Positions 30,500-37,775 of a DNA stretch of 38,488 nucleotides are shown here, piece after piece. How positions within the stretch are numbered: the stretch's first letter is position 1; every line of letters begins with the position of its first letter. The DNA is taken from positions 1 through 38,488 of the forward strand of contig ONJF01000023.1 of the NCBI GenBank assembly GCA_900318085.1. Reading direction: 5' to 3'. Origin of the DNA: an uncultured Bacteroidales bacterium (GTDB taxonomy: Bacteria; Bacteroidota; Bacteroidia; Bacteroidales; F082). Position numbers and translations under genes: made by a program. The notes below the pieces were generated by a model. The model saw nothing but the letters and a program-made list of their open reading frames with translations, made no database searches and was not told where the DNA came from.

Positions 30500-31369
30500 A
30501 TGGAACAAGTAAACGAAATGGTTGTATATCAACCTGATGAAGTTGTCAGTTTGGAAGTCAGAGTCGAAAATGAGACGGTATGGCTAAATTTGAATCAAAT
30601 TGCAATGCTGTTTGATAGAGATAAATCTGTGATATCCAGACATATAAATAATATTTACAAAGAGAAAGAGCTTTCCAAGACTTCAACTGTTGCAAAAAAT
30701 GCAACGGTTCAAATCGAAAATGGCAGGTCAATTGTCCGCCAGATGGATTATTACAATTTGGATGTTATTATTTCTGTAGGATATCGGGTGAAGTCCCAAA
30801 GAGGTACACAGTTTCGTATTTGGGCTAATCAAGTGCTAAAACAATATCTACTTAAAGGTTATACGATCAATAGCCGATTGACACAATTGGAGCAAAGGAT
30901 GGACAATAAGTTTTTGGAACACGAACGGCGTATTTCCGACAATGAAAAGCAAATCGATTTTTTTGTTCGGACGACTTTGCCTCCAACTGAAGGTGTGTTT
31001 TGCAATGGGCAAATCTTTGATGCGTATGTGTTCGCTTCTGATTTGATTAAGTCGGCAAAAACAAGTATTGTATTGATTGATAATTATGTTGATGAGAGTG
31101 CTTTGTTGCTATTGTCAAAAAGAAAAAAGGGCGTTTCTGCAACTATTTTTACAAAAGTAATCTCACAAGCGTTACAACAAGACCTTGACAAACATAACCT
31201 TCAATATGAACCAATCAGTGTGCTGACTATAGCAAATGTTCATGATCGTTTCTTTATCATAGATAACATGGTTTATCATTTAGGGGCGTCTTTGAAGGAC
31301 CTAGGCAAGAAGTTGTTCGCTTTTTCTAAAATGGAATTGGCTGGAGATGAATTGTTGGAAAAGTTGTAA
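30500..31369 (+). CDS. RhuM-type DNA-binding domain fused to a phospholipase D-like domain
   Basis: 289 residues. Residues 15-120 match the RhuM family (VWLNLNQIAMLFDRDKSVIS, RHINNIYKEKEL, YYNLDVIISVGYRVKSQRG, TQFRIWANQVLKQYLLKGY), known from virulence and genomic-island genes. Residues about 123-155 are a likely coiled coil (LTQLEQRMDNKFLEHERR). The rest (165-285) looks like one half of a PLD fold: FDAYVFASDLIKSAKTSIVL, then His248-Asp-Arg-Phe (VHDRFFIID) and GASLKDLGKK near Lys266 in place of a full HKD motif. A DNA-binding conflict or defence-type role is inferred. The gene is more AT-rich than comM, which it follows by three bases, suggesting later insertion into that transcript. Confidence 0.75.
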   Translation: MEQVNEMVVYQPDEVVSLEVRVENETVWLNLNQIAMLFDRDKSVISRHINNIYKEKELSKTSTVAKNATVQIENGRSIVRQMDYYNLDVIISVGYRVKSQRGTQFRIWANQVLKQYLLKGYTINSRLTQLEQRMDNKFLEHERRISDNEKQIDFFVRTTLPPTEGVFCNGQIFDAYVFASDLIKSAKTSIVLIDNYVDESALLLLSKRKKGVSATIFTKVISQALQQDLDKHNLQYEPISVLTIANVHDRFFIIDNMVYHLGASLKDLGKKLFAFSKMELAGDELLEKL

Positions 31370-31565: not shown

Positions 31566-32009
31566 ATGTTACAAAAAGGAACGAAAGCCCCTTACTTTGA
31601 AGGGCAAGACGAGAGCGGTAACCTCGTCAAACTGACGGATTTTGCTGGAAAGAAACTGGTGCTCTATTTCTATCCCAAAGACAGCACGCCAGGATGCACG
31701 GCTGAAGCTTGCGACCTTCGTGACAACTACGAGCGTTTTCTGGCATTGGGCTACAACGTGCTGGGTGTCAGTCGCGATAGTGCCAAGTCGCATCAGAACT
31801 TCATCGCCAAATACAACCTGCCTTTCCATCTCATCGTCGACACTGATTTGACTATCCTGAAAGCCTACGAGGCTTGGGGTGAGAAAAAGATGTACGGCAA
31901 AGTGACTGAAGGTACGCTGCGCACCACATACGTCATTGATGAACAAGGCATTATCGTTGACGCCATAGGTAAGGTGGATACCAAAAACCATACGGCACAG
32001 ATTTTATAA
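31566..32009 (+). CDS. bcp: Thioredoxin-dependent thiol peroxidase (Bcp/PrxQ)
   Basis: 147 residues. Reduces hydrogen peroxide and organic peroxides, using thioredoxin for recycling. The active site is YFYPKDSTPGCTAEACDLRD, with peroxidatic Cys44 and resolving Cys49 five residues later, as in the atypical 2-Cys PrxQ type. GVSRDSAKSHQNF, KMYGKVTEGTLRTTYVID and the terminal VDTKNHTAQIL are also typical. A separate promoter precedes it; the DUF488 operon downstream has its own box. Confidence 0.95.
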   Translation: MLQKGTKAPYFEGQDESGNLVKLTDFAGKKLVLYFYPKDSTPGCTAEACDLRDNYERFLALGYNVLGVSRDSAKSHQNFIAKYNLPFHLIVDTDLTILKAYEAWGEKKMYGKVTEGTLRTTYVIDEQGIIVDAIGKVDTKNHTAQIL

Positions 32010-32036
32010 GCCGTTGCGATAATGGAAATAATTCTT

Positions 32037-32044
32037 TATTTTTG
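32037..32044 (+). promoter_or_regulatory. Promoter of the DUF488-DUF488-dual-OB operon
   Basis: TATTTTTG with TTG at 32014-32016, about 20 bases upstream. It lies 26 bases before the first DUF488 ATG and is the only clear box before the three genes. Confidence 0.62.
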
Positions 32045-32069
32045 CAGCCAGACAATTGAATAGTATTGA

Positions 32070-32702
32070 ATGGATAAATACAGGTTATATAGTATAGGAC
32101 ATTCCAGCCAATCTTTAGAAGACTTTTTGAATTTATTGGCTGTTCATGGCGTCAATTGTGTCATTGATGTCAGAAGCATTCCTGCGAGTAAGTACTCTCC
32201 ACAATTCAACCAAGATGGTTTGAAATGCTATTTGAAGTCTCACAACATTCAGTACTTGCACTTTGGCGACGAGTTTGGCGCAAGACGAACGGATTGCTTG
32301 GATGAGAATGAACAAGTCGATTTTGAAAAAGCAGTTGAGACTCCCCTTTTCAAGAAAGGTGTTGAGCGTGTTATGAAGGGCTTGGAAAAAGGCTTTCAAA
32401 TTGCTTTCATGTGCTCTGAGGCCGATCCTTTAGAATGCCATCGTTTTTCACTTGTTTCTCGCTTTTTTTACGACAATGGAGTCGATGTTCAGCATATTTT
32501 GAAAGATGCGTCATTGGTGTCTCAAGCAGATCTGGAAAAAGAAATGATAGCATCTTTTCTCCATTCACGGAAATACCATCTTTCAGAAGTGGATTATCTA
32601 TTTGGATCCTATACGGAAGAGGAACAACGTAAAGATGCATATCGCTTAAAAAACAAGGAGATAGGATATAGACCCAAACTCCAAGAGGAAGAAAACTATT
32701 GA
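32070..32702 (+). CDS. DUF488-family protein (first of operon)
   Basis: 210 residues. Family hallmarks are IGHSSQSLEDFLNLL near the N-terminus, VIDVRSIPASKYSPQFN, IQYLHFGDEFGARR and Cys115-Ser-Glu-x-x-Pro-x-x-Cys123-His-Arg (MCSEADPLECHR). The conserved Cys-Glu-Cys-His set may bind a metal or form an active site; the biochemical function of DUF488 is not known to me. Codon use is more AT-rich than in bcp upstream. It begins a tight three-gene run: the next DUF488 ATG follows two bases after this stop. The tail (about 175-210) is charged and not part of the core domain. Confidence 0.85.
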   Translation: MDKYRLYSIGHSSQSLEDFLNLLAVHGVNCVIDVRSIPASKYSPQFNQDGLKCYLKSHNIQYLHFGDEFGARRTDCLDENEQVDFEKAVETPLFKKGVERVMKGLEKGFQIAFMCSEADPLECHRFSLVSRFFYDNGVDVQHILKDASLVSQADLEKEMIASFLHSRKYHLSEVDYLFGSYTEEEQRKDAYRLKNKEIGYRPKLQEEENY

Positions 32703-32704
32703 CT

Positions 32705-33148
32705 ATGATTACGCTCTATACCATCGGTTTTACGAAAAAAAGTGCCGAACACTTCTTTAATTTGCTGCGCGACAACAATGTGAAGCAATTGGTGGATGTA
32801 CGAATCAATAATAGTAGCCAATTGGCTGGTTTTGCCAAAGGAAAAGACTTGGAGTTTTTCGTCAGCGAGATTTGTCATATTCCATATCAGCATGTTGCCG
32901 ATTTTGCACCGACAAAAGAATTACTCGACAAGTGGCACAAAGAGGAAGTGACATGGGAAGAATATGTAGAAATCTATGTGAACTTACTGAAAACCCGAGA
33001 TGTCATTCGTAAATACGGTGTAAAGGCTTTTGATGGCTCGTGCTTCCTATGTAGCGAAGACACACCCGAACAATGCCACCGCAGGCTATTGGCCGAATAC
33101 CTGCAAGCACACAGTAAAGAAAAGGTCACGATTGTTCACCTCATTTGA
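32705..33148 (+). CDS. DUF488-family protein (second of operon, short form)
   Basis: 147 residues. Shares the DUF488 plan with its neighbour: TIGFTKKSAEHFFNLL, QLVDVRINNSSQLAGFAKG and the same closing motif Cys116-Ser-Glu-x-x-Pro-x-x-Cys124-His-Arg (LCSEDTPEQCHR). The P-x-F loop of the first protein is replaced, and it lacks the C-terminal extension, so the pair may form a heterodimer with distinct roles (inference). The ATG at 32705 is chosen; a TTG at 32699 overlaps the previous stop. The dual-OB gene starts five bases after its stop. Confidence 0.84.
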   Translation: MITLYTIGFTKKSAEHFFNLLRDNNVKQLVDVRINNSSQLAGFAKGKDLEFFVSEICHIPYQHVADFAPTKELLDKWHKEEVTWEEYVEIYVNLLKTRDVIRKYGVKAFDGSCFLCSEDTPEQCHRRLLAEYLQAHSKEKVTIVHLI

Positions 33149-33153
33149 GCATT

Positions 33154-34404
33154 ATGGATAAGTATTTCATTTGTTTGGCCAATTCATACAAACATGGTGG
33201 ACGTTGCATTGCTGGCGTTGAGGTTTCGCCAAGGCCAGACGGTCGTATGGATATTGTTCGCCATAATGACGGTCGCCCATGTTGGATTCGCCCGGTTTCG
33301 ATGGCTGAAAACGGAGAAATCCCAATGCAATTGGCGCAAGATGTCAAATTGCTTTCTTTGGTAAGACTTACCGACGTGGCACCTTGTCCTCATAAGGCTC
33401 ACACCGAGGATGTGCATTGCTCACGCATGGAATGCTGCCCCAATGACAATGAGTTCAAAGACGATTTTATGAGCCAACTCGTTGACCCTGTTCACCAAGC
33501 GGTATTCTATTTTCGAGGGAAGGCTATCCCAGCAAAGATGATAGACCGGCTCAACTATTCGTTGATGCTCATACGACCTGAAATAGCTAGTGCCTATATT
33601 GACGAAGAAAGGGAAAAGTCTAAATATCGGATGAAGTTTACTTATTATGGCTCCAACTATGACTTCCCTATTACGGATCCTTATTTTTTGGATGCTTTTA
33701 AGAAGAATCCGGAAAGATACACGGACTTAAAAGGAGTTTACCTTACACTCTCATTGGGGTTGGAATTCGAAGGTTTTCATTTCAAACTGGTTGCAGGGGT
33801 GTTCTTGCCTCCAAAAATAGAATTGGAAAAGAAAGAAATTTCTTCTCCAGACAAGGAGCTTTCATATATAGATCGGCAGAAACAACTTCATCCAAATGCC
33901 TATGCTAAATGGAGTCAAGAGGATGATAGTTTATTGATGGAGATGCATAGACAGGGTGCTTCGCTTAATGAAATCATGACTCGATTTCAGCGGAATGAAG
34001 GATCGATCCGTGCTCGGTTGAAAAAACTACTTGTCGAAGATTCATCAGGTAATTGGTTTGATTATTATGATCAAGAATTGGCCCGTTTGATTGACCTCAA
34101 GAAAGAGACAGAGAGCCAAATTGGCGCATTGCGGAAAGAACTGCTTCAACAAATGGAAATCCATGATGAAGAGAAGATAAAAACGACAAGGTTCACGATT
34201 AGTTATTCTCCTCCAAAAACTGTTTTGAAATTTGATAGCGACCTTCTTCGAGAAAAAAACGAAGAACTATACAGAAGCTATTGTACTATTTTCGATAGCA
34301 AGTTGTTCCGCGAGGAGAATCAAGAATTGTATGAAAGCTGTTGCAAACCAGTACAAAAAGATGCTTCAATAGTGGTCAGGCAAAACAAAACAGATGAGTC
34401 TTAG
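33154..34404 (+). CDS. Dual-OB (DuOB)-like protein with C-terminal Myb/HTH-like domain
   Basis: 416 residues. The N-terminus (FICLANSYKHGGRCIAGVEV, then CWIRPVSMAENGEIP) is characteristic of the dual-OB domain family, proposed to bind nucleic acids or nucleotides; a cysteine cluster (PCPHKAHTEDVHCSRMECC) lies at 78-95, and a second beta-rich half extends to about 220. Residues 251-295 (AKWSQEDDSLLMEMHRQGAS, IRARLKKLLVED) look like a Myb/SANT-type helix-turn-helix. After a helical segment (305-345) there is a near-perfect 20-residue duplication, FDSDLLREKNEELYRSYC and FDSKLFREENQELYESCC (360-397). A sensing or effector role within the three-gene operon is inferred. The longer TTG start at 33145 overlaps the preceding stop and was rejected. 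Confidence 0.7.
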   Translation: MDKYFICLANSYKHGGRCIAGVEVSPRPDGRMDIVRHNDGRPCWIRPVSMAENGEIPMQLAQDVKLLSLVRLTDVAPCPHKAHTEDVHCSRMECCPNDNEFKDDFMSQLVDPVHQAVFYFRGKAIPAKMIDRLNYSLMLIRPEIASAYIDEEREKSKYRMKFTYYGSNYDFPITDPYFLDAFKKNPERYTDLKGVYLTLSLGLEFEGFHFKLVAGVFLPPKIELEKKEISSPDKELSYIDRQKQLHPNAYAKWSQEDDSLLMEMHRQGASLNEIMTRFQRNEGSIRARLKKLLVEDSSGNWFDYYDQELARLIDLKKETESQIGALRKELLQQMEIHDEEKIKTTRFTISYSPPKTVLKFDSDLLREKNEELYRSYCTIFDSKLFREENQELYESCCKPVQKDASIVVRQNKTDES

Positions 34405-34430
34405 TACAAAAAAAGAATCAAACTAAAACA

Positions 34431-35814: not shown

Positions 35815-36726
35815 ATGGAATTTGTATTGAACGAATATCATCGAAATACTCCAGACGAAGAATTGGTAGAGGATGTGAAACGAGTGGCAGATTTGCTCAA
35901 AAAGGAATCCTTGTCATGCAAAGACTATTCTTCGCACGGTCGTTTTAGTTATGGTACTTTGAGGAATCGATTTGGCTCTTGGAACGAAGTATTAAGACGG
36001 GCAGGGCTGTCTGTTGAGAAAGGACGTCTTAAGTTTCATGATTATTGCGAATCGGATGAGGTTTTTTTCGCTGATTTACGACGTGTTGCGAAGTTAATGG
36101 GACGTGGTTATGTTACGCGAACAGAATATGAAAAACATGGAAGATTTAATTACGGAGAGAGGACAAAAAAATATGGAGGATGGGGCTCTTTGCTGAAAGT
36201 GGCAGGATTAGAACAAACACCTTTTAGAACTGGCCCTAAGCAAATGTATTCTGAAAAAGAATTGTTTGAAGAAATAGAACGTGTTTGGATAAAACTTGGA
36301 AGGCAACCGTCAAGTACGGATTTTGAAAAGAATGAGTTTAAATATGGAAGAAATACATTCTTACGCAGGTTTGGTGGATGGAGGAAAGCATTAGAGGCTT
36401 TTGTGGACTATATCAATTCAGAGGATGATGAGGAAAAGTCTGAGATTGTTCCTGAAGAAGGAGTCCATGATAAAACCTTGATAGGTCAGAAGTCTTTCAA
36501 ACATAAAACAAAACGAGATATTAACCTTCGTTTACGTTTTAAGGTGATGGCTCGGGATCATTTTAAATGCTGCAAATGTGGCAAATCGCCTGCAACAGAC
36601 CCTTCTGTAGTATTGCATATTGATCATATTTACCCTTATTCAAAAGGCGGTGAGACGATAATGGAAAACCTTCAAACTCTTTGTTCCGACTGCAATTTGG
36701 GCAAAAGCGATCTTGTGATTTATTAA
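35815..36726 (+). CDS. HNH endonuclease with three N-terminal HNH-associated repeats
   Basis: 303 residues. Three diverged repeats of about 50-70 residues share the pattern (hydrophobic)-x-D-h-x-R-V-A, then Y-x-x-H/N-x-x-F-x-Y-G, then RFGSWNEVLRRAGL, KYGGWGSLLKVAGL or RFGGWRKALEAFVD. This is the repeat known from homing-type HNH nucleases, probably for DNA recognition. The C-terminal HNH domain (about 235-303) has FKCCKCGKSP, HIDHIYPYSKGG, then NLQTLCSDCNLGKSD: two CxxC zinc pairs and the metal-binding His residues. It should cut double-stranded DNA. The gene is AT-rich relative to its neighbours, indicating likely horizontal origin. It has its own promoter and no cognate methylase nearby. 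Confidence 0.85.
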   Translation: MEFVLNEYHRNTPDEELVEDVKRVADLLKKESLSCKDYSSHGRFSYGTLRNRFGSWNEVLRRAGLSVEKGRLKFHDYCESDEVFFADLRRVAKLMGRGYVTRTEYEKHGRFNYGERTKKYGGWGSLLKVAGLEQTPFRTGPKQMYSEKELFEEIERVWIKLGRQPSSTDFEKNEFKYGRNTFLRRFGGWRKALEAFVDYINSEDDEEKSEIVPEEGVHDKTLIGQKSFKHKTKRDINLRLRFKVMARDHFKCCKCGKSPATDPSVVLHIDHIYPYSKGGETIMENLQTLCSDCNLGKSDLVIY

Positions 36727-36756: not shown

Positions 36757-37242
36757 ATGAATACTTCATTTATCATCCGTCCTGCGAAGCCCGAAGAGGC
36801 AGGCCTTGTCCTTGAATTCATCAAGAAACTCGCCGTTTACGAGAAATGCGCCGATGAAGTTGTGGCCGACGAAGCCACCATCTATCATTCCCTTTTTGTG
36901 GAGCATGCTGCCGAGGTGGTCTTTGCCGAGGAAGATGGCGTGGTCATCGGCTTCGCTTTGTTTTTCCACAACTTCTCCACTTTTGTCGGGCGCAAGGGTC
37001 TGTATCTCGAAGACCTGTTCATCCTTCCCGAAAAACGCGGTCGGGGCTATGGCAAGGCTCTGTTGAAATATCTCGCCAAGATTGCCGTGGAGCGCAACTG
37101 CGGCCGTATGGAGTGGATCTGTCTCGACTGGAACAAACCCGCCCTGACCGTTTACCGCAGCATCGGTGCCGTGCCCATGGACGAATGGACGGTGCAGCGC
37201 TTGGACGAAACGGCATTGAAAAAGTTTGCATTGGAGGATTGA
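36757..37242 (+). CDS. GNAT-family N-acetyltransferase (diamine/SSAT-like)
   Basis: 161 residues. Transfers acetyl from acetyl-CoA to an amine. The sequence pattern follows the spermidine/spermine or thialysine acetyltransferase group: IRPAKPEEAGLVLEFIKKLA, YEKCADEVVA, FFHNFSTFVGRKGLYLEDLF, the CoA loop RGRGYGKALLKYLAKIA, and DWNKPALTVYRSIGAVPMDEW. The start at 36757 (MNTSFIIRPA) is preferred to the GTG at 36736. The ogt start lies two bases after its stop, so the two form an operon; the substrate is inferred only from similarity. Confidence 0.88.
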   Translation: MNTSFIIRPAKPEEAGLVLEFIKKLAVYEKCADEVVADEATIYHSLFVEHAAEVVFAEEDGVVIGFALFFHNFSTFVGRKGLYLEDLFILPEKRGRGYGKALLKYLAKIAVERNCGRMEWICLDWNKPALTVYRSIGAVPMDEWTVQRLDETALKKFALED

Positions 37243-37244
37243 CG

Positions 37245-37775
37245 ATGGACGTGTTCCGCTATCCGACCCCAGAAGATTTTGATGACCTGCTGATGAGTAC
37301 AGACGGTGAGGTGTTGACGGGCATTTGGTTTGCAGGTTCGCGAGATGAAAACAAACATCCATTGGGCGTTGTAGAGACGTGGCACGCCGCGTCTCTACCG
37401 CCCGTAATCCATGACACCTATCGTTGGTTGGACCTCTATTTCACAGGTCGTCAACCCGATTTCACACCAGCCTATCGCATGGAAGGCCTGACGCCATTCC
37501 GCAAGACGGTGTTGGATATCGTGAGAGAGATACCTTTCGGAAGAACCATGACCTACGGCGAAATTGCGAAACGCATTGTAGAGACGTTTTCTGAAACGTC
37601 TCCGAAACCAAGAAAAATGTCAGCACAGGCGGTAGGTGGCGCAGTGGGTTGGAACCCCATCTGCCTCATCGTGCCCTGCCATCGCGTGATGGGCGCAAAC
37701 GGCAACCTTACGGGATACGGAGGGGGCATTCACAACAAAATCGCTTTGCTGAAACTGGAAGGAAACCTTGTGTAA
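37245..37775 (+). CDS. ogt: Methylated-DNA--protein-cysteine methyltransferase
   Basis: 176 residues. Repairs O6-alkylguanine by irreversible transfer to Cys145 in the PCHR motif (LIVPCHRVMGANGNLTGYGG). The helix-turn-helix region (MTYGEIAKRI, SAQAVGGAVGWNP) and the N-terminal WLDLYFTG are also typical. Two 28-bp palindromes lie inside the gene: one at residues 42-52 (VVETWHAASLP) and one at residues 111-120 (VETFSETSP) in the loop before the recognition helix. Both are in the Val-Glu-Thr frame without a stop. The protein should still fold because both are loop positions in the family, but this has to be inferred. The start at 37245 follows the GNAT stop by two bases. Confidence 0.93.
   Translation: MDVFRYPTPEDFDDLLMSTDGEVLTGIWFAGSRDENKHPLGVVETWHAASLPPVIHDTYRWLDLYFTGRQPDFTPAYRMEGLTPFRKTVLDIVREIPFGRTMTYGEIAKRIVETFSETSPKPRKMSAQAVGGAVGWNPICLIVPCHRVMGANGNLTGYGGGIHNKIALLKLEGNLV
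37371..37398. repeat. 28-bp GTAGAGACG palindrome, copy 5 (inside ogt)
   Basis: gtagagacgtggca and cgccgcgtctctac pair with few mismatches at the centre. It is read as VETWHAASL in ogt. Confidence 0.8.
37578..37605. repeat. 28-bp GTAGAGACG palindrome, copy 6 (inside ogt, degenerate)
   Basis: gtagagacgttttc with tgaaacgtctccga; the gagacgttt/aaacgtctc core pairs, the distal end has diverged. It is read as VETFSETSP in ogt. Confidence 0.65.

Follow-up and report, generated by a model that had tools for sequence, protein, structure and literature searches.

The closest described counterpart of the locus reported here is PDC-M45, a widespread defense candidate in the PADLOC catalogue. PADLOC PDCs have been presented as candidates obtained by guilt-by-embedding, most of them without experimental validation (PMC12988326). 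Some components also have names in Pfam, where the families DuOB (dual OB) and DUF488-N3a already exist. A RapZ-C-DUF488-DUF4326 clade was reportedly defined in 2023 by Burroughs and Aravind, who are said to have predicted DNA-end processing in conflict systems. Our literature searches returned no paper naming PDC-M45 and no biochemical or genetic test, and a substrate for DUF488, a common enzyme family, was found nowhere in the literature searched. Here we analyze a three-gene cassette on a contig of an uncultured Bacteroidales bacterium of the rumen (ONJF01000023.1); the whole stretch of 38,488 nucleotides (nt) is referred to as the window.

The cassette genes, named B, C, and A in their order, lie in tandem on the forward strand with gaps of only 2 bases (B-C) and 5 bases (C-A), so that the operon layout given in the original prediction agrees with the gene coordinates. 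B (32070..32702, 210 amino acids [aa]) encodes a DUF488 enzyme whose model resembles protein tyrosine phosphatases (PTPs). C (32705..33148) encodes a second DUF488 enzyme of 147 aa from its ATG, with a TTG at 32699 as its longest possible start, and scores above the DUF488-N3a cut-off. Both match Pfam DUF488 (PF04343; B, 1.3e-20 and 74.7 bits; C, 5.3e-22 and 79.1 bits; cut-off 22.2). A (33154..34404) encodes 416 aa from its ATG, or 419 aa from an alternative TTG start at 33145. Its DuOB domain (33163..33801, PF22557) is matched at 1.6e-35 (123.5 bits; cut-off 27) and is followed by a Myb-like helix-turn-helix (HTH; 33910..34080), which is sub-threshold in Pfam (0.013) but has helices in the model, and by a coiled coil and Gp157-like region (34063..34245; Sipho_Gp157, 31.7 bits, cut-off 28.6). 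The A C terminus also carries a short tandem duplication at window positions 34231-34332, FDSDLLREKNEELY / FDSKLFREENQELY, a pattern present in two copies in locus L028 and in one copy in L033 (L numbers denote individual loci).

Each PDC-M45 profile is matched by its own component (B, 1.2e-53; C, 1e-58; A, 1.2e-29), and the three window genes match as one unit. Since PADLOC PDC-M45 and the Pfam entries already list its parts, the trio is not the undescribed system that the original prediction took it to be. It differs from PDC-M45 in that window A has ~195 extra residues (the HTH and Gp157-like regions) past the PDC-M45A match and in that relatives found here include helicase-fused forms of A. 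With the RapZ-C-DUF488-DUF4326 clade it shares DUF488 membership, a PTP-like model, and, on plasmids, a DUF4326 gene in place of B.

Upstream of B lies the box TATTTTTG (32037..32044, forward strand), the sole TAnnTTTG within 31951-32075, preceded at 20 nt by a TTG (32014-32016, same strand); we take these, by the consensus for such elements, to be a -7 promoter box and a possible -33 element. TAnnTTTG is retained in all six sibling loci, while the -33 TTG is missing in L029. In 21 of 52 nonredundant loci, TAnnTTTG occurs in the 150 bp before B (mononucleotide shuffles predict 3.9), which bears out the earlier proposal of a promoter box ahead of the operon. No tRNA or Rfam family was found when the window was scanned for them.

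Linkage of the three genes across genomes

A profile search of genome contigs with DuOB alone gave 99 relatives, and the best 80 were taken as DuOB loci, representing 53 clusters at 75% identity of A. B is present in 79 of these loci and B together with C in 68, with locus members on one strand; 11 loci have B without C, and the single counter-example, L053, has DuOB with neither. Because the loci were sought by DuOB alone, this linkage is beyond chance, and the co-occurrence across genomes on which the original prediction was to be judged is present. A plain B-C-A run occurs in 67 loci, with spacing of at most 60 bp between B and C in 63 and between C and A in 61. Pairwise distances of A, B, and C also co-vary over 42 loci (r = 0.60, 0.58, and 0.80; the maximum of 999 permutations was 0.20). 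The data support the three genes as a conserved unit. DuOB is patchily distributed: Of 395 genomes in the window's phylum, 11 have it, as do 11 of 60 close relatives and 12 of 297 genomes from another phylum.

The motif C-S-E-x-x-P-x-x-C-H-R, noted earlier in both DUF488 proteins, is indeed present in each: C115-S-E-A-D-P-L-E-C-H-R125 in B (32412..32444, forward strand), with a strand (residues 111-115) before it and a helix (124-135) after it, and C-S-E-D-T-P-E-Q-C-H-R in the sequence of C (33050..33082, forward strand). Among the open reading frames (ORFs) of the DuOB loci, the core C-x-E...C-H-R is kept in 79 of 80 for B and 67 of 69 for C, and the three exceptions are split-gene fragments (67, 64, and 117 aa); the strict form is kept in 76 of 80 and 61 of 69, respectively. 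B and C are diverged relatives, with 30% identity over 125 residues and a profile-profile probability of 98.9%.

Several variants of the arrangement were seen. L042, L043, and L062 have the order A-B-C-A, in which the two DuOB genes differ from each other; a related gene comes before the set in all three and in L042 is TerB-like below the cut-off. B in L036, C in L050, and A in L104 are each split into two ORFs, which points either to local decay of the module or to assembly errors. Directly 3′ of A, seven loci (L077, L084, L085, L086, L099, L100, and L102) carry a fourth gene, a fusion of an acyl carrier protein (ACP) with an LnmK-type acyltransferase/decarboxylase; all six of these genes that were scanned match TIGR04098, and that of L086 was assigned via its blastp family. 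Two of the fusion genes, those of L085 and L102, overlap the stop codon of A. A short ACP gene lies directly behind A in L106 and, judged by eye and with no family match, in L088.

The genes also occur on mobile elements. Protein A matched 15 plasmid records, five of which were inspected; on Citrobacter and Acinetobacter plasmids, DUF4326 takes the place of B, the smallest such plasmid (4167 bp) having the order DuOB-DUF488-DUF4326. Among 26 loci found via B on putative viral contigs, nine have B and C, and five of these also have A. L110 and L111 from this set look alike, and in L112 (9989-11122) B and C are fused into one 377-aa protein. Protein C had no match among phage records.

Helicases, repair genes, and predicted folds

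All five of the long A proteins scanned, from Bacteroidales, are fusions of a PIF1 helicase to DuOB, with HRDC in two of them (L087 and L091) and HTH_40 in a third (L063). Seven cluster-4 loci have a separate PIF1-family gene upstream of B, stopping 17-55 bp short of it; that of L037 has the composition PIF1-HRDC-HTH_40, and another such gene follows A in L082. The phylum that includes L102, a Desulfuromonadales locus, has RecQ-type fusions of DuOB: The RecQ domain set precedes DuOB in L173 and follows it in L175, and in L174 DuOB likewise precedes helicase domains (L174 and L175 reach contig ends). Fusion of DuOB to two helicase superfamilies, in both orders, points to function rather than descent, and would be difficult to account for if A did not act on helicase-opened DNA.

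The neighbors of the triad in several loci belong to DNA repair. L068, L069, L071, and L104, which represent four clusters, have a MutT-like NUDIX gene at -4, +1, +2, and +3 bp relative to B, and in L069 and L104 a Schlafen-g3-type helicase gene overlaps the NUDIX gene by ATGA. (Pfam was run singly on the L068 NUDIX and the L069 helicase; the other NUDIX and helicase genes were assigned by blastp family.) In L095, Vsr and a MutT above the NCBIfam cut-off precede the triad, and in L087 a UDG-like gene (18.9 bits, below the cut-off of 24.3) and Ogt do so. The leaning toward DNA modification or repair in the original prediction agrees with these neighbors and with the helicase fusions.

Of the hints that the C enzyme may handle DNA adducts, the most direct is the gene content of a plasmid cassette, UvrA-C-family DUF488-frmR, in a formaldehyde gene cluster on an Escherichia coli IncX5 plasmid (NZ_CP086392.1, L186:4158-8072). 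Its DUF488 gene, which lies between UvrA and frmR with neither A nor B, scores 184 bits against the C model. At least 80% of the stretch is found in 82 plasmid records, of 494 with any match. No paper joining frmR, UvrA, formaldehyde, and plasmid turned up in our literature search.

Predicted structures offer leads to the folds of both kinds of protein: B may have a PTP-like fold, and A a tandem-OB fold. In the B model (pLDDT 94), C115 ends strand 111-115 and R125 starts helix 124-135, the strand-Cys-loop-Arg-helix layout of classical PTPs and dual-specificity phosphatases; by this layout B may be a candidate for the Rossmannoid PTP-like fold of the rhodanese-phosphatase superfamily. In Foldseek against the Protein Data Bank (PDB), ranks 1-7 all go to phosphatases of the PTP fold (E from 2.9e-3, TM 0.35-0.40), and among BFVD viral models phosphatases lead the named matches, with a phage DUF488 at rank 11. 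For the A model (pLDDT 90.8), Foldseek ranks Teb1, POT1, CST, HIN-200 domains, and RPA at the top. A differs from these tandem-OB proteins in being bacterial and joined to an HTH or to helicases, and no sequence relation to them was found. Among PDB sequences, the best match to the A profile is 2lvs, in the HTH region (0.0026); the A C terminus alone matched nothing there, and a second copy of the HTH was sought in the window's own genome and none was found.

We judge the chances to be about even that the cassette is a DNA-processing module, carrying out helicase-coupled processing of DNA ends or adducts. A, with its tandem OB folds and HTH, would bind single strands or ends of DNA that a helicase has exposed. 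The PTP-like enzymes B and C, each with a cysteine nucleophile, would then remove or transfer a terminal phosphate, a phospho-sugar, or an adduct on that DNA. That the substrate is DNA ends or adducts, and that the steps follow this order, we infer. Such a module could process damaged or abnormal DNA in general and spread as a cassette, tied to repair enzymes in some lineages and recruited into defense loci in others. If the two enzymes do act directly on DNA, this would be a use of the PTP fold that we know of nowhere else.

Several observations weigh against a DNA-processing module. In the window itself, A has no helicase, the genome's PIF1 matches lie on two other contigs, and no helicase or repair gene directly adjoins the triad. 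Triads behind PIF1 (L037), Ogt (L087), and MutT (L095) have a promoter-like box of their own, so co-transcription with these neighbors is unsupported there; NUDIX genes also occur far from the triad (two of 144 genes, vs. four of 144 near it), and many neighbors look like housekeeping genes. The UvrA-DUF488-frmR records are mostly near-identical and may represent one lineage, and plain vertical descent would also make the A, B, and C distances co-vary. The fold matches are weak: SRP GTPases and tetrapyrrole-type methylases closely follow the PTPs in the B ranking, and the best match to A has an E of 5e-4 and a TM of at most 0.23 on the whole query. Finally, the Cys loop of B and C is C-x9-R and not the classical PTP CX5R, and neither profile finds anything among PDB sequences at E up to 0.1.

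Defense and small-molecule alternatives

The trio could instead be a dedicated anti-phage system, PDC-M45, in which A would be the sensor of phage DNA ends or of intermediates of replication, with B and C either disabling these or making a signal. We regard this as possible, if on balance doubtful. All three proteins are components of PDC-M45, one of the PDCs described as guilt-by-embedding candidates (PMC12988326), and individual triads do lie in defense surroundings. On the Allochromatium plasmid pAt1, the triad sits inside a type III-B CRISPR locus, and on an Agrobacterium plasmid CBASS genes are ~2 kb from it. Restriction genes are found upstream in L064 (HsdR with a YgjP protease; L066 is alike) and L079 (a type IIG enzyme), L099 has the triad downstream of GmrSD, and L176 has it in a DNA methylase/SNF2/AlbA_2 locus. 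The weak Foldseek resemblance of A to HIN-200 DNA sensors and the patchy distribution of DuOB are consistent with such a role.

A comparison of near and far neighbors, made with one locus per A cluster, lends this no support. For the near set, we took the complete ORFs within 1.2 kb that were 90-1250 aa long (147, of which three among the longest were removed); for the far set, 147 of 205 eligible genes at least 5 kb away were drawn at random and the last three dropped, leaving 144 genes in each. Counting families rather than genes, PADLOC families matched numbered 113 near and 176 far, so that by this measure there is no PADLOC excess near the triad to support a defense-island reading of the genome loci. 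In Pfam, the near set has four NUDIX, three SLFN-g3 helicase, and two each of PIF1, Ogt, and HSDR_N, and the far set two NUDIX and at most one each of the others, all of which are small numbers. The defense assignment of the original prediction therefore stands in part: The trio is PDC-M45 and has CRISPR III-B and CBASS neighbors on plasmids, whereas the proximity to known defense islands that it proposed to look for does not show as an excess of PADLOC families near the triad. An anti-phage system also leaves the repair-gene neighbors unexplained, and our literature searches found no phage test. The DNA-processing reading and a role in phage defense may both be true.

A fuller form of the DNA-processing reading, which we hold only tentatively and think rather unlikely in all its parts, is a widespread, as yet undescribed pathway for repair of DNA adducts or blocked ends. 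Here the SF1 helicase PIF1 or the SF2 helicase RecQ would open the DNA, the tandem-OB protein would hold the strand, and the two PTP-fold cysteine enzymes would act on the DNA; the pathway would be common to base-damage repair (MutT, Vsr, UDG-like, Ogt, and UvrA/formaldehyde) and to anti-phage islands.

It is quite improbable, in our view, that the genes are a small-molecule set in which phosphates derived from ADP-ribose or nucleotides are the substrates for dephosphorylation by B and C, with A as sensor or regulator. The replacement of B by DUF4326 on the Citrobacter and Acinetobacter plasmids would fit, as DUF4326 has been proposed to process terminal phosphates of ADP-ribose or its breakdown products (PMC9503650). 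So would the MutT-like neighbors and an archaeal fusion of a ParB-CTPase fold with DUF488-HTH, which bound CTP (PMC12704722). The PIF1 and RecQ fusions of A, together with the UvrA link, however, indicate DNA rather than free nucleotides.

Insertion site, flanking genes, and wider meaning

The cassette is a clean insertion between Bcp and PhzF. In two congeneric genomes without it (L139 and L140), the Bcp stop codon is separated by 3 bp from the PhzF ATG, where the window has 2.4 kb, running from the Bcp stop codon to the PhzF start codon (32010..34430, forward strand). GC content is 40.5% in the cassette, compared with 48.1% in the window. The same insertion site is used in L027-L031 and L046, and no target-site duplication was seen by eye at the cassette. 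That B and C are thiol-redox or stress genes of a Bcp operon, their conserved cysteines serving a peroxide response with the neighboring peroxiredoxin, is very improbable. In its favor, Bcp is a same-strand neighbor 60 bp upstream, eight of the 80 loci contain it, and in L058 (8795-9977; a much diverged A, no C) it is encoded on the opposite strand, 85 bp from B. However, six of these eight loci represent the insertion site of the window itself, the remaining loci have other neighbors, and Bcp-PhzF occurs without the cassette in two genomes.

The window also contains a RhuM-family gene upstream (30500-31369; PADLOC PDC-S05, 6e-129) and, downstream, a gene for a protein with three HNH_repeat units and HNH (35815-36726). 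The original prediction had read RhuM-PLD and HNH as an accessory neighborhood, a view that does not hold: Both genes are absent from their own places in L139 and L140. The RhuM, cassette, and HNH inserts are AT-richer (36%-41% GC) than the core genes between them (48%-53%), and RhuM and HNH are separate insertions, not conserved partners. In the flanks of the 80 loci, of which 57 offer 2 kb upstream and 3 kb downstream, we found no HNH relative at E 1e-3 and no full-length RhuM; short RhuM-like ORFs occur in two loci (L076 and L091), the one in L091 ~100 bp upstream of the B ORF. Absent in L139 and L140 and nearly absent from these flanks, the two genes were ruled out as partners. An Ogt-like protein is encoded ~2.7 kb downstream of the cassette (37113-37775), in the flank common to the siblings.

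The repair link is the testable part of the DNA-processing reading, and it is new unless Burroughs and Aravind already drew it in 2023. PDC-M45 is a defense candidate that still lacks a mechanism; fusions to helicases, the MutT, Vsr, and Ogt neighbors, and the UvrA-DUF488-frmR arrangement would give DUF488 and PDC-M45 a concrete substrate class, DNA ends and adducts. What is listed as a defense system may fundamentally serve DNA repair, a point to weigh when embedding-derived candidates are interpreted.

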